DNA of 64,000 nucleotides from Effrenium voratum (lineage: Eukaryota > Sar > Dinophyceae > Suessiales > Symbiodiniaceae): contig CAUJNA010003002.1 of the NCBI GenBank assembly GCA_963377175.1, forward strand, positions 193,501 to 257,500. The letters run 5' to 3'. Shown here in pieces: positions 18,901 to 51,614 of the stretch. Each line of letters opens with the position of its first letter. The first letter of the stretch is position 1. The notes beneath the pieces are model-generated. The model saw nothing but the letters and a program-made list of their open reading frames with translations, had not been told where the DNA came from and searched no databases. The position numbers were made by a program, and so were the translations under genes.

Positions 18901-20350
18901 TTTCGACATCCGACTATGTCTCAAGCACGTAATTCTTCTCTTGCTTGTTGGAGGCAACAGGAACAGACAAAACTCAGATTGCCATTGTCTTTCTTTCCTG
19001 ACCTCATTGACGCACTTTATTTGGGTATGGGTCAAACTTAAACCACCAGCAAAGCCACAGGTTTTGGTCCATGTTTCCATTTACCAGGATTCCGTTTTGG
19101 GTACATATTGGGATGGGCAGCAGCAGCTTCTTGGTGTAGTTGGCTCTACTTCCTTTCTGTGAGGAGACGGAGTACGCAAGGCAACGCCCTGGGCGCAGGC
19201 GGGTCAGGGGAGGTTTCCTCCAACCCAAGCTGTTTGGCCAATCTACCTCCACAGACCTTTCAGTGGACATCTTCAAACTCCCGGGTGGAGGTTTCGATTC
19301 CCAGTTGGGGTTCTGGAATGAGGATTCCCGCACACTTTGCTGTCCCAAGATCTTGACTTGGCTTGGCTTGTGGATGCCTCGAGCAGCATCAGTGCTTGCT
19401 TCAATCCTTGCCTGCCTGCAAGACATTTGGGTGTGGATTTTTTTCTAGAAAAGGCTTTGAAGTGAAGGCAGAAGGCACACTACCATTTTGGTGTCTCCCT
19501 ATTTTGACATTTTGCTGTGGCATAAAGCCAACATGGGGATTCCGTGAGGCAGAAAGACTCCTTCCACGAGGCGCGAGGGGATTTGCTTCAAGCGGCCATG
19601 CGTCTGAAAGACAGGTGTGTATTTGTGTTTGTTTGCTTGTTTGCTTGCTTGCTTGTTTGCTTGTTTGCCTATTTACTTGTTGGCTAGTTCGATTGTCTGT
19701 CTGTCTGTCTGCCTTTTTGCCTGGCTGCCTGCCTGCCTGCCTGTCTGTTTTTGTTTGTATTTGTTTTTCTTTGCGTTTGTGTTTGTGTTCTTTTGAGGTG
19801 GGTTTGAAGGGACACCAATGGGAAACCCACTGTTTTTGGTTCCCATATTCTAGAAGAAACACACCCACACACCCACACAAACCCCACACAGGAAACTTAG
19901 ATGATCGCACGATGCTTCTTGTGCTGGACTACTGCAAACATGGAAGCTTGCTGGAAAAACAATTCTGGCGCCACCTTGCTCGCAGCAACTCGTCAGTTGA
20001 TGACCGGCCTTCGGCGGCGCGTCCATGCGCTGGGATACATCAACTTGGACATCAAGCAACGCAATACTCAAGTAGTTCTGACCATCATTTGGCCATGGGT
20101 CAAAATCCCGTACCTCCAGTGAACATCCCAATCCCCACTAAAATAGGTTCTAAGCTGGGTGGTGCACCTACCCCAAAATGGGATCCCATCGGTTTTGACA
20201 ACCACGGCCATTTTGAATTGAATACCTCTCAGTTGAAGTTGGTAGACTTCGGCTGCGCAGCCAAAGCTGCCGGCACGAGGAAGCTCATGTTTTTTTTTTT
20301 GTGCACAGCTCCCTGGTTTCAGCTTCTGTGGAGCGCTGGCTGCGTTCTGT
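15896..20350 (+). CDS. Protein-kinase-like gene, probably a pseudogene
   Basis: Exons at 15896-15980, 17071-17125, 18529-18587 and 19901-~19990 join without breaking phase (0-1, 1-2, 2-1, 1-). A catalytic-loop exon (~19994-20071) and a DFG exon (20233-~20278) follow, joined in phase 0. Kinase marks seen are LLVLDYCKHGSL (hinge region), VHALGYINLDIKQRN (catalytic loop, with the Asp, Lys and Asn but HRD changed to NLD), KLVDFGCAAKAAGTRK (DFG) and LWSAGCVLY (subdomain IX). The glycine-rich loop, the VAIK lysine and the APE motif were not found. The hinge exon and the catalytic loop lie in different frames (shift near 19985-19993), and a MITE starts directly after LWSAGCVLY. These defects favour a pseudogene or a wrong exon model. 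N-terminal exons are missing. Confidence 0.5.
16141..16230. repeat. Dispersed foldback element, family A
   Basis: Starts GGGTGTGTCTTTTTTGTGGG, has CCCCTTTTTGGTTGGTTTTA and ends near CCCATTTGGGGGGGCC. Lies in an intron of the kinase-like gene. Confidence 0.7.
16911..17003. repeat. Dispersed foldback element, family A
   Basis: CCAAAAAAAGGTGGTTTCCT, GTTCCTTTAAAACCAC and GGTGTCGAGCCTCCAAAA; reverse orientation relative to the 16.14 kb copy. Confidence 0.65.
17071..17125 (+). CDS. Kinase-like gene, exon
   Basis: Acceptor TTTTCGCTGAG, donor GTGAAA, phase 1 to 2. The peptide PSWEEFAEMWEEAARAS is helical and acidic. An in-frame stop just upstream makes the acceptor obligatory for this frame. Confidence 0.55.
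17240..17332. repeat. Dispersed foldback element, family A
   Basis: CTGGTGTCTGTTTTTCAGGG, GGTTTCAAGGGAAACCCAAA and CACACCTAAGAAAATGTCCA. Confidence 0.65.
18529..18587 (+). CDS. Kinase-like gene, exon
   Basis: Acceptor TGACTGCAG, donor GTGCCC, phase 2 to 1. The peptide HSTTAQGGERLAQDGAVLQ has about 90% third-position GC and precedes the kinase hinge exon in phase. Confidence 0.5.
19022..19115. repeat. Dispersed short element, family D
   Basis: GGGTATGGGTCAAACTTAAA, CCATTTACCAGGATTCCG and TTTGGGTACATATT match the 6.13 kb copy. The 3' TTTTGACCC end is lost. Confidence 0.7.
19610..19795. repeat. TTTG/TTGC/TGTC/TGCC microsatellite block
   Basis: A compound tetranucleotide tract (GTTTGCTTGTTTGCTTGC, then GTCTGTCTGTCTGCC and CTGCCTGCCTGCC). 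It lies in the intron before the kinase hinge exon. Confidence 0.85.
19901..20071 (+). CDS. Kinase hinge and catalytic-loop exons
   Basis: After a GGAAACTTAG acceptor the frame reads DRTMLLVLDYCKHGSLLE (hinge region), typical of serine/threonine kinases. From about 19994 a second frame with 80% third-position GC reads LMTGLRRRVHALGYINLDIK and QRN, the helix E and catalytic loop. The two are offset by one base without room for a normal intron, so a frameshift is the simplest explanation. The 3' side has a GTAGTT donor. Confidence 0.6.
20096..20222. repeat. Dispersed short element, family C, inverted copy
   Basis: Reverse complement of the 6.96 kb element: GGGTCAAAATCCCGTACC, AGTGAACATCCCAATCCC and CCAAAATGGGATCCCATCGG. 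It fills almost the whole intron between the catalytic-loop and DFG exons. Confidence 0.85.
20233..20350 (+). CDS. Kinase DFG segment and subdomain IX
   Basis: Acceptor CCTCTCAG, phase 0. The frame reads LKLVDFGCAAKAAGTRK (DFG, metal-binding Asp) and, 30 bases on, TAPWFQLLWSAGCVLYAT (subdomain IX). The activation segment between them lacks a recognisable APE motif and contains a poly-T run before CACAG, suggesting either a wrongly placed intron or decay. Confidence 0.55.
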
Positions 20351-20354
20351 ATGC

Positions 20355-20487
20355 TACTGTGGATGGACGAAATCCATTTCGCACCACCCAAGAAACCCCG
20401 GAATCATGCTTCCCCTGTAAATACCAGCAAGCAATGGTTTTTTCTGGTTTTCAAGCGGTGCGAAATGGATTGTGTCCATCCGCAGTT
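20355..20487. repeat. Family B MITE with TA flank
   Basis: Left end TA-CTGTGGATGGACGAAATC, right end in inverted orientation (GGATTGTGTCCATCCGCAG). The interior carries the conserved CCTGTAAATACCAGCAAGC and CAATGGTTT modules. It begins immediately after the kinase WSAGCVLY codons. Confidence 0.85.
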
Positions 20488-21927
20488 TTTTACGGCCGGA
20501 ACACTGGCAAGTTTCTGGTGGCAGGCGCGCTCTCCCTTCTTTTGGCCCTCGTTTTGGGCCAGCCAATTTGTGGAAAGGCGATGTGTCGGTTGGCCTTCAA
20601 AACGGAACGCCGTGAGAAGGGGAGGTCAGCTTCAGAGACCTTGCAGCATCCAACAAAACAGGCGAACGAAGTTGAAGACTGTCCTTAAGGGAGGAAGGGG
20701 CGATCGAGTGGCTTGGAAACGATCAATTTAAAACCTCCCAGGTTTGAGCGGTTGTTTGACCTGAGTCGTTGGGATCTTTTGCTTGATGGGTTCCAGCCTC
20801 AAAACGGAAGCCCTCTTGCCCATGGTTTCGGTGCGTTTTGGTTTCTGGATTTCCATTTCTGTGCAGATTGCCCTCTTTGTCCTTCCACACGCCAAAGGTT
20901 ACTGCTTCACTCGGCAACCCGTTTGTCAGGCATTTCAAGCCCCTTTTGGGGGAGGGGCACTTGAACCCCCCATTGGACATTGTGGCCGAACAAGCGGGCC
21001 ACTGAAAGACATGCCTACATCCATGATGTTTCAGATTACAAACATCCGGCGCTTGTAGCTTTTGTTTGATGCATGGTGCGGTGGATGCTGAATACTGCAA
21101 GTCAACAACCCGCATTCGACCACAAACCATGCCAATTTACTTTGAATCAGGGGCTTCCCGGGTCTTCTTGCTTGCAATACATTACATCATCCACCGTACT
21201 ACCTTTGTCTCCAAGCCATCCCTCGCCCATCGCTCGGGCAGCCGTCAGCAGTTGCGCTAGGAAGACGAGCCGCGGAGTCGCACGTCCCAAAGATGGGCGC
21301 GGCCCGGGCGGCGAGAGGAAGAGGAGATGCCGAGCCGCGCGCTCAATATGGCATGACTGGGGTGTGTCTTCTCTAGGAGTTGGACCCCCAACATGGTGGT
21401 GTTTTCCTTTGGTTTTGCTTTAGAAGACGGGCACACTCAACAGAAGACACAGCCATGTGCCCAACATCTTTTTGAGGTTGGTTCGCCTTAGGGGTCCAAC
21501 ATTGAACTCAGTCTGGCAGTGAAGCCCTTTGGCTCGGGTTGCCGTGCTTTCGACATGTCAAATGGCTTGCGCCGCGCAAGCTGACAGAGTTGGTGAGCCA
21601 CGCGCAATATTCACCGGCAGAAAGAAACCAAGCTTAAGACACAGCTGTGAGGGACAACGCCATGGCCGAAAATCTGGCGGCACCTGGAGCCCACGCCAGA
21701 AGGGCCAACGCTTTTCATTGTGCCAAATTGCAATGCCCTCGCTCAATATTGCAAGTCACCACAAGCCCGCGGCAAGTGTTGTTCGTTCCTGTGCGACCAT
21801 GGGCAAATTATCCTGCACCAGTTGGGATGGATGAAACGATGAACCCCCTTCACAAAAGCTTGGTGTTCGCCACATTCTGCAAGGGAACCAGGCTCAAACC
21901 CCTGTAACTTGTAACTCACCACAGCAT

Positions 21928-25123: not shown

Positions 25124-25246
25124 ATGGACGAGGGCAGCCACTACGCGGTGCTGGGGCTGGCAGTGGATGCCTCCCCGGAAGAGGTGAGGAAGGCGCACAA
25201 GAAGCTGGCGCTGAAATGGCATCCCGACAAGGCGGGGGAAGAGAAG
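25124..25246 (+). CDS. J/beta-helix/WW gene, exon 1
   Basis: Starts at the ATG in GGCCATGGAC. Encodes helices I and II and the HPD loop of the J domain (residues 1-41). Donor GTCTCC, phase 0. Confidence 0.85.
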
Positions 25247-26768
25247 GTCTCCGCTTTCTTTATTCCTTAGGGGGGGGAGTTAGTTAGAGCTTTTTGTTTT
25301 GGGGGGGGAGGGAGGAGTATTATTTTTTGGAGTGGATGGCAGTTGTTGGAGGAGTCTTTTTTTTGTTTGAGGGGAGGGAGGCGTAATATTTTTTGAAGGT
25401 TCACGGGGTGTTTTGTTGGTTGGGGGTGCGTATCGGTTGCGTGGGAGTGATTACTATTGCTGAGGAAAGTGTGTATCATCAAGCTAACTCCGCTAAACTC
25501 GATGTAGGAAATTCGCCCAGTCGTTGACGAGTCAGCAAGATTGCGCCCAAAAGAAAGTCAACCAACGAATTGGTAGCTTTCCTCGTATTTTCTCTGCCTG
25601 CACCGTCAACACACAACTTTTGCACAAAGTACATACACTTATGTTTTGCCAAATGAGTCGTCGAGCGTAGCCAACTTTTCCCTTTTGACCCTCTTCCCCT
25701 TTACCATCTTTCACCAGGTCGGGTTTCGGGCGAAGAGCGGCAGGTTTTGGCTCCGGACGAGATCGCCCTGCGGGTGGCCACCCAGCAGTTCCAGCTCGTG
25801 CAGGCCGCCTATGAGGCAGGGCCCCCGAATTGGCAGGTTGGCACCTGGCTGCCAGAAAGGTCCATAAAACAATAGACATCTTTGGAATGCGAGTAGAACC
25901 AGAAGTCGCTAGGTTTTGCGCACACAGTTGTGTGTTACGATTGGCATTTTCCAAACGTCATGAGCATCTGCAAGGTTTGTGCATTCGACACCCCAAGAAG
26001 CACATTTGCAAGCTGAGCTGCTAACCGTTGTCAGAAAGCAAACACATGTGACATAATCGGAAACGTATTATCAGGGCACTTGCCATCAGGGCTCTTGCCA
26101 TCAGTCCCAACTCTAAATCAATTGCTTGAAGCTAGCACTGGGTCGGAAGTGGCCTATCCTTGTCTACAACTTCATTATCAGGCTTACATTGCAGTCATCT
26201 TGTGGAAAACAATGGCAACTACCATCTAGAAACAACATTCATCTTTGTTGATTGGGCGAAGCCAGGCTCTCTTCCATGGTATGACGCGATTGGACTTTGT
26301 GATTCCAAGAATCAGTCGGAGCTGTGAAACGAGGCTTGAAAATGGGTAGGTATTTAAGGTAGGTAGGTTAAACTCCTTTTCGGAGGAACCGTGCAACCAT
26401 TGTACGAGTCAAGAAAGAAGCAAAGCAAGCTTTACGGCCGCATCAAAAAGCCCTGGCAAGTATTTGATACCCCAAAAGTTGGTGCTGCCGACCAAAGCTT
26501 GGCCCCAACTAAAACTGACACCCATCTCAAGCCCGATTGTTTTGCCCGAAGGGCCCATTTGTTCTGGGCAAAACATAAAAAGGGACCTGTTTGATGATGG
26601 TGCTTGGCTTGGGGATTCCAAGTTTCCAATTTTGTGAATCACCATTTGTGCGGGATGGTGTTAGCAGTTGCTGTGGAACCAAAAAATGCCTTGAATTGGG
26701 TGTGCCTGTTTTTGAGGTACTCCTTTTTCGCTGGTTTGAAAGGGACACTAAAAGGAACACTGTCGCGC

Positions 26769-26827
<59 letters not shown>

Positions 26828-29800
26828 GCAATATTAACATTGTTATTATTATCATTATCATTACTACATTTGTTTTTCTATGTGTGTTGGGGGGTCCAAG
26901 TTTTACAAACAAACACACACACACACACACAGAGCCACCAGCTTCAGAGGTCCTCTCCGACGAGCGCCAGCGCCGGCGCTACGACGAGACCTTGGGCCTC
27001 GAGCGCCGGAAGGCGGCGAAGTCCGACGGGGGCGCCGCGGCCAGCTGGGCCCAGAGCGATGCGGTGTGCTTGAAGGAGGGGCCTGGGGCCCGGGGGGGAG
27101 GGGGGGGTGTGGAGGGGAGCGAACATGAAATTTCTGGGAACTTTGCAGCCACCAAGTTTGATGTTTGCAGGTGTGAAGGGTTTCCATGGGAATTTTTCAG
27201 CCATGACCTTCTTTTGATACTTGCAGGGGAATTGAAACATTCCGATTGGGTTTCTTGGGTGGTGCAAAGTTTCGGCCATCCACAGTATGGTTGTCCTGGG
27301 CCGACTTAAAGGGTTCGGGTACGGCAGGTAAGTGAGTAACCATGGTGTGAGCCCACTTAAGTGTCCTAAGTGGATAACCAGGCTTACTAACCACTTGCTG
27401 GGTACCCGGTACCCTGCCCCTTGAAGTAGGGGCCTCGTAATAAGCCCTAGGGCCGAATCGTGTTCTTTTTGGCTGACACGGGTTTGCCTCAAAATAGGGA
27501 AGCCTTTTTTGTTGTCAATTCGCATTCCCCTTGAAAACACCTCTCCTAAAAAGGGTACCATCAAACACAGGCATGCCCATACTAGTTTGCAACCACCTCC
27601 TTTAGGAGGGAGGTATGATTCATTTGTGGTCTATTTGGCAACCACGTTTTTTGGGGTATTCTTTAAGAAAGTGTAAAGAGTCTTGCTCGAAATGTACATT
27701 CTAGGTGTCTATGGCAGTGGGCGGGAAAGGGGAGGGGCATATTGTGGCTCTTTGTCTGTTTTGTTTGATTTGGCGGTCAATTGATATGTTCTTATTGTTG
27801 CCACGCAGAAAAGAACACCCTATGGGGTTACATCTGTGTCTGTTGTTCTTTAGGCAACCCCCGCAAAATGATGGTTTTCCTTTGGTTTCCCTTTAAACCA
27901 ACCCCAAAAAAGGTTCCCTCGAAAACTCAAACAAGAGGGCCGATTTTCCAAAAGAACCAGCTGGACACCCGGCATTACTCCCTCCCTCGCGCCTCAAGCG
28001 CTCCTGCCAGAGGTGCCGGCGGAGGTGGCGACCATTGCTGCGGCGGTGGACCGGTTGTCGGCCAAGGGGGGCCTCATCTCTGTGGCTAAGGGCACCTACG
28101 AGGCGCGCGTGTGGTGGGGTGAGGTGGGGTGGTGGTGAAGGGGGGCGGTGGGTGCGTGACGTTGGGGCGATGTGCACTTGGAGTTTCGAATTTGCAGCAC
28201 CAAGCAACAAAGAAATACAAGGCTTTTTGAAGAAGGGGGGTGGGCGCAGCGGGGGGTCAAACTTGCAAGGGACGGAAGTTGTTTCATTTCACACCTGGTT
28301 CTGGGCTCCTTTGACCCCCAGTTTTTGGATGGCGTCCTTACAGCATTACCATCAATCACTTTTGCGGGCCACCCTCCGTTTCACACTGACCTCTCCAGTG
28401 CGGCCACGAAGGTGGCCGAGTTCTTCAACCTACTTTTCTGGATTCGATATATGTCCCTTGAAGCCATTTAGCCCCTTCAGCCACGTGGGTTTTCCCTTCA
28501 CCCCCTCAAAGACGGAGCCGCCTTCCTATCTGCCCGAGTCAGGGCCTGGTGGTGGTGTCGAAGCCCTTCGTGCGTCTCGTTGGGGAGGTGGGGGCCGTGC
28601 TCCGCGGCCAGGCCGAGAAGGGTGCAGCGCATGTGGCGGGGGGTGAGTTTGGAAAAATCCAGGGGATCTTTCGAAGTGTTGCCGGCCAGGATTGTTTGAA
28701 CGAGGGGTATGAGTCGAAATTCACCCACCAGGTGGGGTTTTGGGCTGCGTTTCGAAGAATCCCAGGATCTTTCGAATTGTTGCTGGCCAAGTAGGCTGGC
28801 AGATTATGACTTGGGTATGAGTCAAATTCAATCACCAGGGGACCGCAGGATGCAGTCTCTGTTTCCGAATGCCAGGGTTCCATCTAGGGGGGAAAAGCAG
28901 AGGTCAAAACAGCGGTTTTCCGCTTGGGTGAGGTAGCGACGGCTTTGGTTCGTTTCTGCAGGAACCACAAGAGGATGGTATTTTGTTTGATTCCTTTCCA
29001 GAGCTGTTTTCCACCCAGGTTGGGGTAGCTTTGTAGTAGTTTGTTGGAAGAGGAATTGCCTTTAGACAATTGGGGATGCCTTTCGTTTCCTCACTTTGCG
29101 GCAACAGTTTTTTGGAGTTTGCCGCCGAATTCAGCCACAGCTCCCTTACCCCCCGATGCGATGCGACCCAGCGGCCAGGTGGTCTTCCGTGAGTGCGCCA
29201 CTGGGGCGCGGCTGCAGAACTTCCAAGTCCTGGCCCAGTGCAGCGGAGGGGCGGTGGATCTGAAGGGCGTCAAGGCCAGTGCCATTTGTACCCCCCCGGT
29301 GGTCCCTCGCGCGGTTTTTTGCGGTGCTTTTCGGTTTTTTGTTTGTCTTGCGCAAGAGAGTCGCTCTTCCGAAAATTGGGTTGGCAGCCGTTTTCACCTG
29401 CTTGCAGCCGGGCGCGCGTGCATGCTCCAAACTGCTGTCAGAAGTGGCAAAGCCTGGCGTGGTCAAAGGTCTTCACGCCTCAAACTGCAAATGATCCAGC
29501 GGGGCAATGCAGTTGCAAGAAGCAGACGCGCTGACCCTGTCTTCTTCATTTTGGCCCATGTTTTGTTCACACCATTTTGGACAAATCTATGGCTATCAAT
29601 TTTTTGAGGTCTTGCAAAAGCCCTAGAGCTGGTCCTAGACACGGGTGTCCTTTTATAGGCGCCCCCCAAAATAGTGGTTTTCCTTTCGGTTTCCTCAAGA
29701 AACGGGCTCAGACGAAGAAGGCTAGAGGACCCTGACAGCTGGGTCGAAGATCCTGCGTTTGGGATTTCGGCCCAGGTTCCAGGCAGGTTCCGGGATTGGG

Positions 29801-32800
29801 CTTATCATGCGTTGTTTGTTTGTTTGTTTGTTTGTTTGTTTGTTTGTTTGCTTGCTTGCTTGCTTGCTTGTTGGTTGGTTGGTTGGTTGGTTGGTTGGTT
29901 GGTTGGTTGGTTGGTTGGTTTGGGGTGGTTCATTGTGCCTTGGTCTATTTGTTTGTGTGTGTGTGTGTGTGTGTGGGTGTGTGTGTGTGCTTGTTTTTGT
30001 GTTTGTGCAGTTTCTTTCGGCGAGTGGTAATTAGCGGTGCATGCAGCTTCCCGACGTCAGGGCGACGTGGAGATCGAGGGCTGCGAGATCAGCAACGAAT
30101 CCTCCGCGGGTTTGGTGCTCGCAGCTTCGGCTGTGACGATTGGGAGAGAAGAGCTCTGGGTTTCCCATGGATGTCCAAGCAACGTCAGGCAAGTAGGTTA
30201 TACCCATGGTTGTAACTTAGGCAACTGGGGTTGGTCCCATAAGAGTCATGAGTCATGAGTTTATAAACTACTTACTAAGTTGGTTGAACTTCCAAGTAAA
30301 TCTCGAAGGGTGGCGTTTGGGGAGTGAGGGTCATGGTGCTCTCTTCCAAGAACCATGCAAGTGGACTTTTTGGGGCGTTTCCAAAAGGAGAGTAGTCGCG
30401 CAACACCCTTCTGTTGGCTTCCATGATTGTTGGAGGGGGGGTATCTCGAGTCCTTAAGGCTTATTAGGGGCTTATCCTTGGCTTGGCTTATCTGAAGGTC
30501 TGCGATTTTCGGTCGGGGGGACCAGCCCGAAGGCAACAGAAGGCTTCGCTTGCAAAAGTCGAAAGGTCATGCTGCCAGTTTCCCTGAACCAGGATCTTTT
30601 GGGGAAACACCCTGAACCAGGATGGCGGATGTCAGGTTCAAATGGCCCAGGGAATTGTTGCAAGCGCATACACGCGTTCTGCCGCAAAGGCTACGTGGGT
30701 CAGTCACTGGCGATTTCACTATTTTTAACACAATCAGATTGACTTGACAGTCTCCCAGTCGATTTCTTCCAGCGGTTCGCAAAATGGATCGTGTCTCCAA
30801 ACACGTTGTTTTGGGGTGATTTGCATTTTGAGATTCCTACCCGGCCGTTCATCGTTTCGACTTGGGCCAAACAGGGCGCTGAGTTGGCTCTCTGGATAAG
30901 GAACACGCAGGAGCGGTTGGCATCAACCCATTGGCGTAAAGCATGCTCACCAGGTCCTTTACTCGCTTTTTCTTCTTCCCCTTTTGCTGATGGCAACCGC
31001 TTCAAGCCAGGCCTGGGTAAGTAGCTTTGCTTGGCTTCTCCATCCTAGGCCTCCCACGAATCGCGGTTTCGGCCCACAGCGCAAGATGTTCGGTTTCCAG
31101 ACCGCAGAAGAAAGAAAAATAGCATATAAACAGCTCTGGGCCGTGTTTCTTTCTTTTCGCCGTGGGTGAACCCCCCGCAAACACGGGCGGGGCATCCACC
31201 GAAACACCGCTTCGCCTCCTCGCTCGGCTGAGCTGCGAGTCGCGAGGGGAGCGATGGATTCCGAAGTCAGGAGGCCTGCTGGGGCCAGGTGGCGGTGAAG
31301 AGCTGCCGCATCGCGCAGTGCAAGTTCGACGGGGCGCGCCTTCGGAGAGTCGGCCGTCGGGAGTGGCTTGGTGGGGGGGAGAGAAGCAGACCAAAGGCGC
31401 AAGGAGGCGATCGATTTCGCGGACTTTTGCTTGATTTAGAGTGGTGGTTTGGTTTGGTTTCCCACTCCTTAACTTGCTTCCCCATTTTTCTCAGCTGTCA
31501 GTCCGGGTTTGTGGCTTCGTGGTTTTCCGTTTCGCAGAGTCTTGGAAAGGGACAATGGTTGACATAGGTCTTTGCTGCTTTCGTCAGATGATGGATAGAT
31601 GAATCCAGGGACAACCGTCTTTTCCTTCTAAGCCTGGTTTCCATTTCGCTATCTGCCAGGTATGGAGGCTTATATACCACCAATACGAGCTGGTAAGGCA
31701 GTATACCGATATACCCCTTAAAACGGTGGTATATAACCTCCATACCTCAGACACCCCTACCACGTGTTTTGCAGGGACGTCGGAATTGTGCAGGTTGGGC
31801 TGCACCAACTGGACGCTGCAAAAATCGGAGCCATGGCGAGCGGAGGATGCCGGCTGACCTTGGAGCAGTGTGAGGTGGGTTGGGAAGGGGAGGGGAGGCG
31901 GGAGAAGCAGGGGGGTGGTGGGTGGTAGCTGGGTGGTGTTGGTGACTGGGTGGTGGGTGGTGGGCGGGGGCGGGTGGTGGGTGGGTGGGTGGGGGTGGGC
32001 GGTGGGTGGGGGTGGGCGGTGGGTGGGTTCAAGGAAAACCCATGAAGAAGGGGCTCTTGCCAGACCTGCCTATTTTGTGGGGGGAGGGTTGTCGCCGTGA
32101 AAGTTGTCATCAGCTCACCAGTGGATAAATTGATCTCAGGCATGATGAAGGTTCTTTGCGAAGGGGTTCCTTATCTTCACTTGGTGAATTATTCTTAGCA
32201 TGGTTGGCAGACGCGGATGGTTTATCTAGCGCGAAGGAAGAAGCAGAATAAGAAGAATACTATTAATAGGAAGAAGAAACATAAAAAGGACAAGAAGAAG
32301 AAGGAGGAGGAGAAGAAGACGAAGAAGACAAAGAAGAAGAAGAAGCAGAAGAAGAAGAAGAAGAAGAAGAAGAAGAAGAAGAAGAAGAAGAAGAAGAAGA
32401 AGAAGAAGAAGAAGGAGAACACATGTTGAACTTGCCCAGTTGATTGCAATAACAGAACAGGGAAGCCCTTACTTGGTGGTTTGGGTGGGAGAAGGGCCAA
32501 TGCAAGCTTTCAGAGCTCATCCCTTCACAACACATCCTCTTCTTCCATTTAACAAGCTTTGGTTTGGTAGGTGCCTTCGTGGGGTTCTCCCGTTTTTTGG
32601 AGAACCTAGAACCTTCAAACGACTTCATCGGCATGTCCCCCCATGAGACGCGCCGCCCCCGTTTGCTGTTTGCTGATGTTGTTCCGCCAGGCAGCACCCT
32701 CGTCGTGTTTTTTTTTTGTGCGAAATCACATTATTTGTGTTGTTCGGATTCCCTCCTTTTAGACTCTCCACCAAGCAACGGACCGAGCGACTGTTTTGGA

Positions 32801-35800
32801 CCTGCCAGGGGCCGGACGGAACCAAGCCTTGCCCGACGGCCTGGAATCTGTCGTTTGGTATTCTTGCCGGGGGCCGGAAAAGACAACAACAAGAACATAC
32901 GTCAGGCTCTCGAGGAAGTTTTCGGCCCAGGGCGAGACTCCACTGCATGGCTTAGATTTTTCTCCTCCCACCTTCCGTTCAGGTGGAAGGCAACGGCTAC
33001 GATGGCCTCTACCTGGGGGACCCCCGATATGTGGTGGAGCTGCGCCAGTGCAAGGCCGGCCCTTGGCCCAGCAACACACCGCCCCTATTTTTTTCCGACC
33101 CCCCCAACAAAATGTATATATATATATACAAACAAAACACAACAAGAAAGGAGGCGAGAGTTCCCCATCGGCCTCTTCCTGACTGACCTTGTGTGCGACT
33201 CTTTTCAACTCTGACCAAGATCGTTCTCACTCGACACCTTTGCTCCAGGGTTCTCAGAGTCCGGTTGCTTCAAGCAGCTTTCCAGGGATGGCCATGAAAA
33301 AGCCAGCGCCGCCAGCCTTAGGGTCACAAAACGCGCCAGGGGGATGGTTTTTGCGGGAATCGATGGACACCAGCTGGCGAATTCCAACTGGTGCGCGAAG
33401 TGCATTTCCGTCCCATCCGTGTGGAGGCTTCTTGAAATGAGCCTGCAAGTCGAATTTCTTTTCGCAGCCCAACTGGATTTCGCGGGTTTCGGCGGATCTC
33501 GTCCCGTGAAATACGTTGGAGGCTCCTTCCGCAACGCGGAAGGACTCTGGTTTCCGCGCTTTGCAGGTGCTGCGGAACCAGCGGCACGGGGTCATGGTCC
33601 GAGGCTCCCAGTTCTCCATGGAGGAGAGCCAGGCGTGGGCTTTAGGACGCGCTCTAAGCTTAGGGATTCCAAGGACTGTATCGGTTGGATATCCAAGAAA
33701 CACCACATGTTAGCTTCACATCCATAGCATCCATGACTAGAAACGTCCATTTGGGGGTTCCTGGTTTCTTCCGGTTGGATATCCAAGGAATCGACATGGT
33801 AATTTTAACATCCAAGGTGACAAGCAACCACCAACATGTCGGGAAGAGGAACATTTGCCCAGATCCCGAGTGAGGATGGCTGCGAGCTCCATTTCGCACC
33901 ACGAACTGAATCCATGGGCATGATCATTCCAGAACCTTTTGCCGAGATCCACCTCGGGGAATCGAAAAGCGTTCCATGGGATGTTCTTGGCTGGCGCGTG
34001 GCATGGGATTTCGCCTCTCGGACTCAGAGAGGTGGAGGAGAACGGCGGCGAGGCGGTGCGCTGGGAAGGCTTCGTAGAGAAGACCAACCCCCGAGGCGGG
34101 GCGCCAGCGCCAGCGCCATGGGCATGGTGAAACAGGAGGTTCATGGTAGGGGTTTGCGTCCTTTGTGTTTTTTGGGGACCCTACGAGGTGGGTGGTTTTC
34201 CTTTCGTTTCCCTTGAACAAAAACCTGCGAGGAAAAGTGCACCCTGCAACAAAGAGCCACACCCAGTTGGGTTCCTGTCAATAGGGCACCAAAAAAGACA
34301 TACCCTATGTCCGTGGATGTCTGAAACATCTTTTTTGGGCTCTGGCAAAGGGAACCAAAGGACACCGTTGCCATGTTTGGGGGTCTAAATCCGAAAAAAG
34401 GGCATCCCCAAAATGAGGAATCGAGCTTCTCCAACTGGTCAGTGTTCTTTTGGTCTCCCTTCGTTTCAAAACGTCGGGAGTTGTTCCAGAAGGGAATGTC
34501 CCAAGAGGAGTTTGATCCCTCCCTCTTTGCGTACCTGAAAGAATCACCCAACATGGGGTCTCCCATTTCGAGACATATGTGGGACCCAAAGTTTCCTGAC
34601 TGTGATAGTGGGGTCTCTGAAAAGGGCAGAGGTGTCAAGCCGCTTCCGGCCCTGGGTTTTGGTCAGGGCCACCTCTGAGTCGATGGGCTCTTGCGAGCGA
34701 CCTGAAGACCCCACTGTTGAGCACTCCGCCTGCGAATTTTAGGGCTGGGGATGTCATTCAACAGCACATTTTGGGCTTAGCAGATTTTGATCAGCCGGAG
34801 CCATCCTCTTTAGGATTCGGCGTTTAACGGGGGTGAGGCCCCAACCAATGACTCAAACACAACGCCTTCAGGATTCCATTTTCAGCTCACACCTTCATAC
34901 CACATCCTAAAAGCCATGCAACAATCTGCCCCACGTGTTGCCCAGTCCACTACACCCGTCCCCCCGCAAAAAAAATGAAGAACAAGAACAAAAACTCCCC
35001 AAAAACAAAATCCTTCCGCTCAAGCCCTCCGCTCAAGCCCTCCGCTCAAGCCCTCCGAGGCACGGTGCGGGCGGGCAAGGCGCGGGAGGTGGTCGGAGCT
35101 TCGCTGCCCGAGGGCTGGCGGGCCTTCAAGAACTCCGAGGGTCTGACGCCGCTCGCCTCTCAACGTGGAGTCAGGGAGGGGAGGCCGAGGGGTGGAGGGG
35201 TAAAGGGCAGCGTCCGCGGTGCCTTTTTTTTTTTAGAGGCCGACGAGGATAGCCCTGCAGAAGGAGTTTCCAGAAAAACTATGCCCGTCGACCAATTTTC
35301 CACCTTGGGACCTGGGCAGGCCGAGTTTCCGTTTTTCCTCGCCTGCTGAAAAGGTTCGTAGCTCAGTTGGATCCTGTCGTTCATTTGTGCAGAGTACAGT
35401 TCTCGTGCAGGGAGTGCTTTTTGTCGTTTTCGTTGCCTGCTTTCTTACCATTCCTTGTTTCTTGCAATTAGTAAAACAAGCAACACTATTTCTGTGACGT
35501 TGATTTGAATCCTCAACGCGATGTGATTGTACGAGGTGTTCTGCACATGTACTAAGGATGTTCGAGGCTTTTGTTGCTCACTGCCCTGCTCCAGCTTTTT
35601 TCTCATGAAAACCGCGGGGCATGAAGAATCTGGAGGCCACAATGGACTGGGTAATCAGCAAGCCGCAAGGGACTCTGTGGACAGCAAGTGGCACGAAGAA
35701 GCAACCGCGGTTGTCCTGCTTGCCAGCTTTTAACATATAAGAGTCCTTGACATTCGCGTTTGGGCCATTTGATTGGGGCTAGGTGTGGTTTCGTGTTTCG

Positions 35801-36275
35801 TGGGTTGGATATGGCTGATACTTTTTTCACTGGGCTTCCTAACTTGAGAGCCGCGAAGTGCGCCAGTTGAGCTTCCCATCCCTTCCAACAGTGCGAGATA
35901 ACTTTGAGCAGTTTCGGAGAGGATCATCAACAAACTCCTCTGCAGACTAAAGGGCCGGGAACCCGACAAAAAACAACCATTTCTTTTTGAACTGGGCCTT
36001 TTCTTGGGTTCCTTGACGTTTTACCATTGCAGAGGGCCCAGGTCTCGCGTTCGGGGAAGCCCAACATGCAAGTTGGGAAAACAGCGTTGGCACCTTTGGC
36101 ACCAAAGTTGAAGCACCTGACACCTTTGGCACCAAAGTTGCAGCATAGGTACTACTACCACCTGCAGACGGGCACCACCAGATGGTCCGTGCCGGGAGAA
36201 GAGGGTCCGGAGGCTGAAGTGGCGCCTGCGCCTGCAGCGCTGACTGAGGGCAAGAAGCGCAACAGATGGAGCTAG
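25124..36275 (+). CDS. J-domain / parallel beta-helix / WW-domain protein (14 exons)
   Basis: Fourteen exons make a protein of about 420 residues, complete from ATG to TAG. Residues 1-~85 are a J domain: [20 protein letters not shown], then [10 protein letters not shown] with the HPD triad at residues 33-35, helix [13 protein letters not shown], then [13 protein letters not shown]. From about residue 105 to 335 short Gly/Asn-turn and V-x-V-x-x-C strands recur ([81 protein letters not shown]), the pattern of a right-handed parallel beta-helix. The C terminus carries a WW domain ([13 protein letters not shown], then [12 protein letters not shown]) and a Lys/Arg tail ending KKRNRWS. J domains stimulate Hsp70 ATPase; WW domains bind proline-rich ligands. 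No signal peptide or membrane segment. Six introns start GC. The last junction is one base off with standard sites. The combined role is unknown. Confidence 0.85.
25744..25815 (+). CDS. J/beta-helix/WW gene, exon 2
   Basis: Acceptor GCGGCAG, donor GCAGGG (GC type), phase 0 on both sides. Encodes [20 protein letters not shown] and AAYE, J-domain helix III. Confidence 0.82.
26767..26829. repeat. (ATT)n microsatellite
   Basis: About 21 uninterrupted TTA repeats, followed by an interrupted ATT/ATC tail. Lies in intron 2 of the J-domain gene, next to a family A half-element at 26.70-26.77 kb. Confidence 0.97.
26950..27063 (+). CDS. J/beta-helix/WW gene, exon 3
   Basis: Acceptor TTCAGAG, probable donor GTGTGC, phase 0. 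Begins [20 protein letters not shown], the end of the J domain and a charged linker. The frame stays open past the donor, so the end is the least certain of the early exons. Confidence 0.78.
27168..27292. repeat. Family B MITE, left end decayed
   Basis: The right end TTTCTTGGGTGGTGCAAAG, then GGCCATCCACAGTA is conserved; the left end has lost the CTGTGGATGG block. Intron 3 of the J-domain gene. Confidence 0.6.
27315..27425. repeat. Dispersed short element, family E
   Basis: GGCAGGTAAGTGAGTAACCA, GATAACCAGGCTTACTAACC and ACCCTGCCCCTTGAAG match the 53.40 kb copy in inverted or direct parts. Intron 3. Confidence 0.7.
27835..27935. repeat. Dispersed foldback element, family A
   Basis: GTGTCTGTTGTTCTTTAGGC, CTTTGGTTTCCCTTTAAACC and CCTCGAAAACTCAAACA; the Y-rich and R-rich halves can pair. 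Confidence 0.7.
28013..28102 (+). CDS. J/beta-helix/WW gene, exon 4
   Basis: Acceptor TGCCAGAG, donor GCGCGC (GC type), phase 0. Encodes [20 protein letters not shown] and [10 protein letters not shown], which looks like the first strand of the beta-helix (compare the IxVxxGxYxE signature of parallel beta-helix proteins). Confidence 0.8.
28543..28642 (+). CDS. J/beta-helix/WW gene, exon 5
   Basis: Acceptor CCGAGTCAG, consensus donor GTGAGT, phase 0 to 1. Encodes [20 protein letters not shown], a typical turn of a beta-helix following GxYxE. Confidence 0.85.
28803..28880. repeat. Dispersed short element, family D (diverged)
   Basis: TTGGGTATGAGTCAAATTCA, CACCAGGGGACCGCAGGAT. Intron 5. Confidence 0.5.
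29141..29274 (+). CDS. J/beta-helix/WW gene, exon 6
   Basis: Acceptor AGCCACAG (an in-phase alternative ends at 29134), donor GCCAGT (GC type), phase 1 to 0. Encodes [20 protein letters not shown] and [12 protein letters not shown]. Confidence 0.8.
29813..29990. repeat. Compound (TTTG)n-(CTTG)n-(TTGG)n-(TG)n microsatellite
   Basis: Four simple arrays in a row, each a one-base variant of the previous unit, then a short unique piece and a (GT)n run. Intron 6. Near mirror-image arrays (CAGC)n-(CAAC)n occur at 47.1 kb. Confidence 0.95.
30061..30132 (+). CDS. J/beta-helix/WW gene, exon 7
   Basis: Acceptor CCGACGTCAG, donor GTGACG, phase 0. Encodes [20 protein letters not shown] and AASA, one beta-helix coil. 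Confidence 0.83.
30185..30295. repeat. Dispersed short element, family E
   Basis: CAACGTCAGGCAAGTAGGTT, CCATGGTTGTAACTTAGGC and CTTACTAAGTTGGT; the same CAACGTCAGG start occurs in the 44.47 kb copy. Intron 7. Confidence 0.65.
31289..31335 (+). CDS. J/beta-helix/WW gene, exon 8
   Basis: Acceptor TGGGGCCAG, donor GCGCCT (GC type), phase 0 to 2. Encodes [15 protein letters not shown]. Confidence 0.8.
31655..31745. repeat. Palindromic element, ~90 bp
   Basis: AGGTATGGAGGCTTATATAC at the left is mirrored by GTATATAACCTCCATACCT at the right, with ACC/GGT extending the arms and a ~45-base loop. Found once in the window; a MITE-like hairpin in intron 8. Confidence 0.75.
31775..31874 (+). CDS. J/beta-helix/WW gene, exon 9
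   Basis: Acceptor TTTTGCAG, donor GTGGGT, phase 2 to 0. Encodes [20 protein letters not shown] and [13 protein letters not shown]. Confidence 0.82.
31875..32035. repeat. G-rich (GGTG/GGTGGGC)n tract
   Basis: Starts at the exon 9 donor and continues for about 160 bases with almost no C on the + strand; quadruplex-prone. Confidence 0.85.
32240..32420. repeat. (AAG)n purine tract
   Basis: About 150 bases of A and G only, largely AAG repeats. Intron 9. Confidence 0.95.
32983..33054 (+). CDS. J/beta-helix/WW gene, exon 10
   Basis: Acceptor CCGTTCAG, donor GCCGGC (GC type), phase 0. Encodes [20 protein letters not shown] and RQCK; NGxDGLYL is a typical beta-helix turn. Confidence 0.85.
33567..33632 (+). 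CDS. J/beta-helix/WW gene, exon 11
   Basis: Acceptor CTTTGCAG, donor GCGTGG (GC type), phase 0. Encodes [20 protein letters not shown] and SQ; the exon 10-11 join gives [11 protein letters not shown], the classical beta-helix turn. Confidence 0.83.
33670..33800. repeat. Short direct repeat (GGTTGGATATCCAAG)
   Basis: The 15-mer GGTTGGATATCCAAG, which contains the palindrome TTGGATATCCAA, occurs twice about 90 bases apart in intron 11, with ACATCC/GGATGT pieces between. Confidence 0.6.
34032..34095 (+). CDS. J/beta-helix/WW gene, exon 12
   Basis: Acceptor CAGAGAG, donor GCGGGG (GC type) after CCCCGAG, phase 0 to 1. Encodes [20 protein letters not shown] and R. The frame remains open into an Ala-Pro stretch if the donor is not used. 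Confidence 0.75.
34160..34405. repeat. Two dispersed foldback elements, family A
   Basis: First copy GTGTTTTTTGGGGACCCTAC, TTCGTTTCCCTTGAACAAAA; second copy CACCAAAAAAGACATACCCT and AAAGGGAACCAAAGGACACC. Intron 12. Confidence 0.65.
35060..35140 (+). CDS. J/beta-helix/WW gene, exon 13
   Basis: Acceptor CCCTCCGAG, probable donor GTCTGA, starts in phase 1. Encodes [19 protein letters not shown] and the first strand of the WW domain (RAFKNSEG). Frame agreement with exon 14 needs GG/G-TAC, one base different from the GT donor. Confidence 0.75.
36085..36146. repeat. ~30-bp tandem duplication before the last exon
   Basis: ACCTTTGGCACCAAAGTTG followed by AAGCA or CAGCA occurs twice in a row, ending three bases before the exon 14 acceptor. 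The second copy supplies an extra CAG. Confidence 0.8.
36149..36275 (+). CDS. J/beta-helix/WW gene, exon 14 (terminal)
   Basis: Acceptor GCATAG. Encodes [19 protein letters not shown], completing the WW domain, then an Ala-Pro stretch and [11 protein letters not shown] before TAG at 36273. Confidence 0.82.
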
Positions 36276-38564: not shown

Positions 38565-38593
38565 GGATCAATCTGGAGAATGGTTGATGGACC

Positions 38594-38732
38594 TACTGTG
38601 GATGGACGAAATCCGTTTCGCACCACTTGGAAGCCATGGGGAACCATTGTTTGTTGGTATTTACAGGAGAATCAAATCATTCCAGGGCTTCTGAACGGTG
38701 GTGCGAAATGGATTTCGCAACCATCCACAGGA
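38594..38732. repeat. Family B MITE
   Basis: TA-CTGTGGATGGACGAAATC to GGATTTCGCAACCATCCACAG. Interior CATTGTTTGTTGGTATTTAC and CATTCCAGGGCTTCT are shared with other copies. It begins 30 bases after the stop codon of the small gene. Confidence 0.9.
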
Positions 38733-45332: not shown

Positions 45333-45459
45333 TACTGTGGATGGACGAAATCTTGCACCACCCAAGAAACCCTGGAAGGATTCGATTCCCCTGCAAATAC
45401 CAACCAACAATGGTTTCCCATGGTTTCAAAGTGGTGCAGGATTTCGTCCATCCACAGTA
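45333..45459. repeat. Family B MITE, complete
   Basis: TA-CTGTGGATGGACGAAATC to GATTTCGTCCATCCACAG-TA, with near-perfect terminal inverted repeats extended by TGCACCACC/GTGGTGCA. Interior CAAATACCAACCAACAATGG. Confidence 0.95.
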
Positions 45460-51477: not shown

Positions 51478-51614
51478 ACTGTGGATGGACGAAATCCGCT
51501 TGGCACCACCGTTCAGAAGCCGGAATGATTTGATTCTCCTGTAAATACCAACAAACAATGGTTTCAACCATGGTTCTCCAAATGGTGCGAAATGGATTTC
51601 GTCCATCCACAGTA
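51478..51614. repeat. Family B MITE, complete
   Basis: TA-CTGTGGATGGACGAAATC to GATTTCGTCCATCCACAG-TA. Interior CTCCTGTAAATACCAACAAA and CAATGGTTTCAACCATGG. Confidence 0.95.

Follow-up and report, generated by a model that had tools for sequence, protein, structure and literature searches.

J proteins confer specificity on Hsp70, and one of class C, DNAJC17, carries an RRM. The papers cited here report that DNAJC17 interacts with the splicing machinery (PMC5958099), that the beta-helix of FBXO11 serves substrate recognition (PMC8825234), and that the WW domains of PRPF40A bind PPLP and polyproline of SF1 and SF3A1, Prp40 also having FF domains (PMC11079029). Here we describe a gene of the dinoflagellate Effrenium voratum that encodes an N-terminal J domain, a predicted right-handed beta-helix, and a WW domain in a single chain. 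It lies in a stretch of 64,000 nucleotides (GenBank assembly GCA_963377175.1, contig CAUJNA010003002.1, positions 193,501 to 257,500, forward strand), which we call the window and within which all coordinates are counted. Like the splicing J proteins DNAJC17 and Cwc23 (both class C), the product has an N-terminal J domain with an HPD motif followed by a noncanonical C-terminal part; unlike in those proteins, that part consists of a beta-helix and a WW domain, and RRM was not matched in the 29 family members searched with Pfam (E up to 0.01, the scope of all 29-member results below). The predicted fold is shared with FBXO11 and other CASH/beta-helix proteins, which are likewise intracellular and eukaryotic, whereas the F-box and UBR zinc finger of FBXO11 were unmatched and J and WW domains stand in their place. 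The WW core is of the YYY type, as in Prp40/PRPF40A, WBP4, and FE65 (its best PDB matches, together with NEDD4L), but the FF domain of Prp40 was not matched. With beta-helix proteins of bacteria and phages (AlgE4, pectate lyases, tailspikes) the comparison holds at the level of fold, at 8-18% identity, and the beta-helix here sits in a J protein.

We regard the protein as a J protein of class C whose order of domains is new, the class being assigned by exclusion because neither the DnaJ C-terminal domain (PF01556) nor the DnaJ zinc finger (PF00684) was found among the 29 members. A first-pass annotation of this DNA, made from the sequence alone, knew of no described protein with this order. 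The open-licence literature, judged by title among the papers listed and with most subscription journals outside its scope, agrees: no paper listed there concerns a J/beta-helix/WW protein, and no J protein with a parallel beta-helix as specificity module was found there. PMC2873481 names a "DnaJ domain" and a "WW domain" for kinetoplastid CCCH proteins, in passages that do not put both in one protein. Relatives are nonetheless already present in databases, either without a name or as "dnajc21," the label of relative P0056. Membership in DNAJC21, with which the family shares the J domain, was rejected: DNAJC21-named entries among the matches listed carry PF21884 and in most cases also C2H2-type zinc-finger families, and neither was matched in any of the 29 members. 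The label looks like a transfer from the J domain only.

The gene runs on the + strand from an ATG at 25124 to a stop codon at 36273-36275, and its 14 exons total 1182 nt, in frame throughout, for 393 amino acids. Exons were first read by frame and splice phase, and the ends of exons 1, 3, 7, and 13 were then set against P0001, an E. voratum protein of 393 amino acids. The spliced product is identical to P0001 at 389 of 393 residues, an agreement that is not fully independent because P0001 helped to choose exon ends; the initial splice model, built before P0001 was known, already contained all 14 exons and ordered them as here. The four differences (window first) are Q175E, Q213R, W312Q, and N390S. 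The features are as follows.

25124..25231, + strand: exon 1, amino acids 1-36; start codon, J-domain helices I-II, HPD at 25220-25228; donor GC; matches P0001
25744..25815, + strand: exon 2, amino acids 37-60; J-domain loop and helix III; donor GC
26950..27075, + strand: exon 3, amino acids 61-102; end of J domain, low-confidence linker, beginning of first beta strand; donor GA
28013..28102, + strand: exon 4, amino acids 103-132; beta-helix cap helix and first rung; donor GC
28543..28611, + strand: exon 5, amino acids 133-155; beta-helix; donor GC
29179..29274, + strand: exon 6, amino acids 156-187; beta-helix, groove residues D182 and K184; donor GC
30061..30120, + strand: exon 7, amino acids 188-207; beta-helix; donor GC
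31271..31333, + strand: exon 8, amino acids 208-228; beta-helix, groove residue E208; donor GC
31794..31874, + strand: exon 9, amino acids 229-255; beta-helix, groove residues G230 and H232; donor GT, the sole canonical one
32983..33054, + strand: exon 10, amino acids 256-279; beta-helix rung; donor GC
33567..33632, + strand: exon 11, amino acids 280-301; beta-helix, groove residue R291; donor GC
34032..34095, + strand: exon 12, amino acids 302-323; final beta-helix rung, residue 312 W in the window and Q in P0001; donor GC
35060..35147, + strand: exon 13, amino acids 323-352; linker and first half of WW domain; donor GC
36149..36275, + strand: exon 14, amino acids 352-393 and stop; second half of WW domain, low-confidence tail
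36252..36272, + strand: C-terminal KKRNRWS, ULM-like, amino acids 387-393; basic run, Arg-Trp, then Ser

The start, stop, 14 exons, domain order, and WW core given in the first-pass annotation were correct, and the three domains that it named all exceed curated Pfam cut-offs on P0001: DnaJ (PF00226) at residues 6-72 (E 1.2e-19; 70.6 bits against a cut-off of 27.8), Beta_helix (PF13229) at residues 177-311 (E 3.5e-13), and WW at residues 338-367 (E 3.3e-08; 33.9 bits against 26.9). On the initial splice model, which missed one WW residue, the WW domain scored 26.8 bits against the same cut-off. The HPD motif, intact as had been read, occupies residues 33-35 between predicted helices 18-32 and 42-63 and is kept in all 17 family rows that include its exon. 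The WW domain has its two Trp and the aromatic block, in the pattern W..YYY..W. Just four Pfam families were matched across the 29 members, and NCBIfam, searched with three members, returned matches that were all under their cut-offs: J profiles, weak ones to NosD and to beta-helix repeats, and, over the J region, profiles of adenylosuccinate lyase.

A sequence search returned 55 matches, of which P0001-P0029 form the family; the other 26 have PF00226 without PF13229 or PF00397 in their precomputed domains. A profile search with a 22-row alignment (best 120 of 907 matches) brought in P0056 and P0057; the remaining newly found rows among those 120 again lacked both PF13229 and PF00397. DnaJ was matched in 29 of the 29 rows, Beta_helix in 28, and WW in 19; of the ten rows with no WW match, the majority resemble fragments or faulty models. 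Relatives with a named organism, E. voratum (P0001), Symbiodinium sp. KB8 (P0056), and Gymnodinium catenatum (taxid 39447; P0011), are all dinoflagellates, as presumably is P0019, whose Skav label we take to be Fugacium kawagutii, and the family is likely dinoflagellate specific. Most members have one WW domain; P0007 has a second and P0011 the start of a second. In a tree of 27 family rows the window pairs with P0001 (100/100) inside a 13-row group (94/88, just under the 95/80 mark), here called the Symbiodiniaceae clade, to which the rows labelled Effrenium, Symbiodinium, and Skav belong. A second lineage comprises five rows (100/99). Two of these, P0020 and P0021, have two zinc-ribbon-like CxxC pairs after the beta-helix, and P0018 has a comparable stretch with CxC and CxxC between the beta-helix and the C-terminal end; Pfam names no domain at this stretch in any of the three.

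Might J exons and beta-helix/WW exons of neighboring genes have been falsely joined? The HPD exon is absent from 12 of 29 aligned rows (P0003, P0005, P0006, P0008-P0010, P0012, and P0022-P0026), which either start no earlier than exon 2 or carry an unrelated N terminus, and P0057 has the beta-helix and WW domain but no J domain. Yet the rows without HPD retain the second half of the J domain, and predictors may have missed the HPD exon because the donor of exon 1 is GC. The 13 junctions are all in frame and agree with P0001, and three-domain open reading frames (ORFs) occur in transcriptome entries of relatives (P0011 and P0018) and in contigs (longest 1310-1829 bases), on which grounds a false joining was rejected as exceedingly improbable. 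P0007, P0014, and P0020, for example, each consist of one ORF (419-484 codons) on a contig no longer than 1310-1557 bases and therefore represent spliced messages or intronless genes. One message for all three domains, on which the reading of the first-pass annotation depended, is in this way established for the family, though not for the window's own gene. The expected order recurs in diverged rows, which excludes chance, and, judged by sequence, J-beta-helix-WW is a real protein family. A search for a beta-helix sister without a J domain, using residues 112-330 of P0014, found nothing outside the family: each of the 18 matches returned at E up to 1 is a member, by a method that requires exact 5-residue words in common and a similar length.

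A right-handed beta-helix is predicted by the profile match and by the helical beta fold of the structure model. The first-pass annotation had named the same fold but counted about seven short repeats, whereas the strand list of the model gives, by hand count, about nine rungs over residues 98-318. Foldseek returned 8 matches at E up to 0.001, the best a phage protein (3.6e-5), with low whole-model TM-scores, and the best neighbors in the VIA comparison were mostly enzymes: polysaccharide lyases, epimerases, and phage depolymerases. FBXO11 was not among the 50 rows of that comparison, which does not exclude a likeness to it. Conservation of the majority residue at outward strand positions, taken from the 22-row alignment, averaged 0.85 on sheet PB1 in rungs 4-9, against 0.42 on PB2 and 0.43 on PB3; the Mann-Whitney p of 4e-5 is merely a guide because the rows are related, sides and sheets were assigned by hand, and rungs 4-9 were picked after all had been viewed. 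Over all rungs the means were 0.67, 0.41, and 0.54, respectively. The PB1 outward positions of rungs 4-9 are D182, K184, V206, E208, G230, H232, Y265, G267, M289, R291, R311, and E313, and K184, E208, G230, H232, and E313 are invariant in all rows that cover them. We read this column as a binding groove or a salt-bridge ladder. It, like the C-terminal tail described below, is an addition to the first-pass annotation.

In beta-helix enzymes of the kinds just named, the PB1 side carries the substrate site, and K184, E208, H232, Y265, D268, R270, and R291 here are 91-100% conserved, the majority on that side. Together with the structural neighbors, this would suit an enzyme or carbohydrate-binding module that is controlled or placed by the J and WW domains, an idea we nevertheless regard as improbable. 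A common fold proves no function, and enzyme profiles all stay below their cut-offs, both in Pfam (29 members) and in NCBIfam (3 members). NosD does reach the Pfam cut-off in P0002, P0003, P0013, and P0018, but it is a family of periplasmic copper-binding beta-helices and not of enzymes. The J domain, moreover, begins at residue 6 of P0001 and leaves no obvious room for a signal peptide, as judged from position with no predictor run.

With the 36-residue WW core as query, PRPF40A ranked highest among PDB chains (40.8 and 38.2 bits), followed by Prp40 (38.0), NEDD4L (37.3, a sum over four WW domains), WBP4 (35.3), and FE65 (34.4, from its only WW domain). Scored as single domains, over five chains that did not include FE65, the best were Prp40 WW2 (24.3 bits), PRPF40A WW2 (23.7), WBP4 WW2 (20.9), and NEDD4L (15.9); with the longer 70-residue tail as query, NEDD4L came first by summed score. 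Beyond the WW domain the chain ends in a basic run and [KR]WS, found in 8 of the 31 family rows scanned (P0001, 2, 3, 5, 6, 8, 9, and 10), all in the Symbiodiniaceae clade and all eight with Trp-Ser. Mean pairwise identity among these eight is 0.72 over the last 7 residues versus 0.24 over the preceding 17, and pLDDT (predicted local distance difference test) is under 50 for residues 371-393 of P0001, around the tail. Set against rows of two other labelled groups, the tail label needs one change on the tree. Among J-domain matches outside the family, which served as the control in place of a random protein set, the pattern occurred anywhere in 1 of 112 and in the last 12 residues in 0 of 112. 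Residues 387-393 show the basic run, Arg-Trp, and disordered region of the UHM ligand motif (ULM), as these features are given in passages of PMC2791216 and PMC6633205; the same passages give the SF1 ULM peptide as PSKKRRKRSRWNQD and place, in Atx1, an RKRR signal within the ULM and a Ser at W+1 (PMC2791216), and name Arg-Trp the key pair of the ULM in yeast Hsh155 (PMC6633205). The tail resembles a ULM well, but a short motif alone is no proof.

On the reading that we consider fairly probable, the protein is a class C J protein of the nucleus or cytosol whose likeliest site of action is the early spliceosome. The J domain would recruit and activate an Hsp70, as the intact HPD and J family membership suggest. 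The beta-helix may hold a particular client or partner in the conserved groove on PB1, a role for which FBXO11 offers a precedent (passages of PMC8825234) alongside the conservation. The WW domain would dock the protein on proline-rich partners, and in most members of the Symbiodiniaceae clade the ULM-like tail would dock it on UHM-containing partners. Because of these docking modules (the WW type and the tail), we propose the early, 3'-splice-site-recognizing spliceosome as the workplace, where Hsp70 would remodel a complex; splicing as the target is a guess. What the first-pass annotation had observed is confirmed, and its interpretation, a chaperone recruiter in which the beta-helix or WW domain picks the client, is partly supported.

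Several points weigh against this reading. The mechanism is built on sequence and model evidence. Among chains with one WW domain the top scorer is FE65, which is no splicing factor, and NEDD4L and YAP chains also score. Outside the clade the tail never stands at the C-terminal end of a family row (the pattern occurs once inside P0021), and 4 of the 13 clade rows on the tree (P0004, P0012, P0019, and P0056) are without it, probably from gene-model errors, as their ends look misread. A ULM is a short motif, the chain here stops one residue past the Trp, Lys replaces Arg before the Trp in 3 of the 8 tail rows (P0005, P0008, and P0009), and a basic stretch in the linker between the J domain and beta-helix fits a permissive pattern in just 20 of 28 linkers. 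Trinity transcript rows P0021, P0028, and P0029 have no WW match, so that not every reported message has all three domains; P0021, marked complete, also stops before any WW domain. In the groove, sides and sheets were assigned from hydrophobicity and the strand list of the model, not from coordinates, and charges alternate along the PB1 column, which could thus be a structural salt-bridge ladder. The same architecture and Hsp70 recruitment might serve a target outside splicing, such as proteins of transcription, the ubiquitin system, or the cytoskeleton that have proline-rich segments. That is a serious possibility, if one we rather doubt: PDB matches of the WW domain include FE65, NEDD4L, YAP, SETD2, and TCERG1, and the tail is confined to one clade, yet that tail is conserved next to a variable segment, and the best chains for the WW core are PRPF40A and Prp40.

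The introns of the gene (within 25232-36148) have 11 GC donors, 1 GA, and 1 GT; 12 of 13 are thus noncanonical, and GT-AG occurs only in intron 9 (31875-32982). All 13 acceptors are AG followed by G. For Symbiodiniaceae, passages of a review (PMC11453091) give 25-74% GC/GA-AG introns, a range exceeded here in a sample of only 13 introns. Phase is 0 in 11 of 13, and the beta-helix exons 4-12 measure 60-96 nt apiece, about one rung per exon. Mutual copying of the introns was rejected, as only two short patches are common (intron 3 with 6 and intron 3 with 12). A patch of intron 3 (27214-27302) has 81-89% matches near 45403, 53924, 57091, and 20398 and is a dispersed repeat within the intron. Long simple repeats lie in intron 9 (GAA, 32294-32417) and intron 6 (GTTT/GTTG, 29814-29922).

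Elsewhere in the window, elements resembling miniature inverted-repeat transposable elements lie at 20359-20483, 51481-51610, and 38593-38729 (about 125-137 bp, with inverted ends of about 24-30 nt, GTGGATGGACGAAATCC.TTTCGC), and their 24-mer has 6 matches in the window at up to 3 mismatches against 0 expected. A long open frame at 19357-20688 (+ strand) includes a kinase-like stretch, LKLVDFGCAAKAAGTRK; Pfam Pkinase scores 20.4 bits on it, under the cut-off of 31.7, and the frame is perhaps an exon of a neighboring kinase gene.

More specifically, and with little expectation that every part will hold, the protein could be an Hsp70 recruiter of the early spliceosome whose beta-helix grips one conserved spliceosomal partner, whose WW domain binds proline-rich segments like those of SF1 and SF3A1, and whose ULM, newly acquired in Symbiodiniaceae, links it at the 3' splice site to a UHM protein. 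Such a recruiter may aid dinoflagellate cells in splicing their unusual GC-AG and GA-AG introns, which make up 12 of the 13 in its own gene. The existing database names reveal nothing of this architecture. For the question of how a beta-helix might hand clients to Hsp70, the family makes a compact test case, and it may also connect chaperones with the unusual splicing seen in dinoflagellates.

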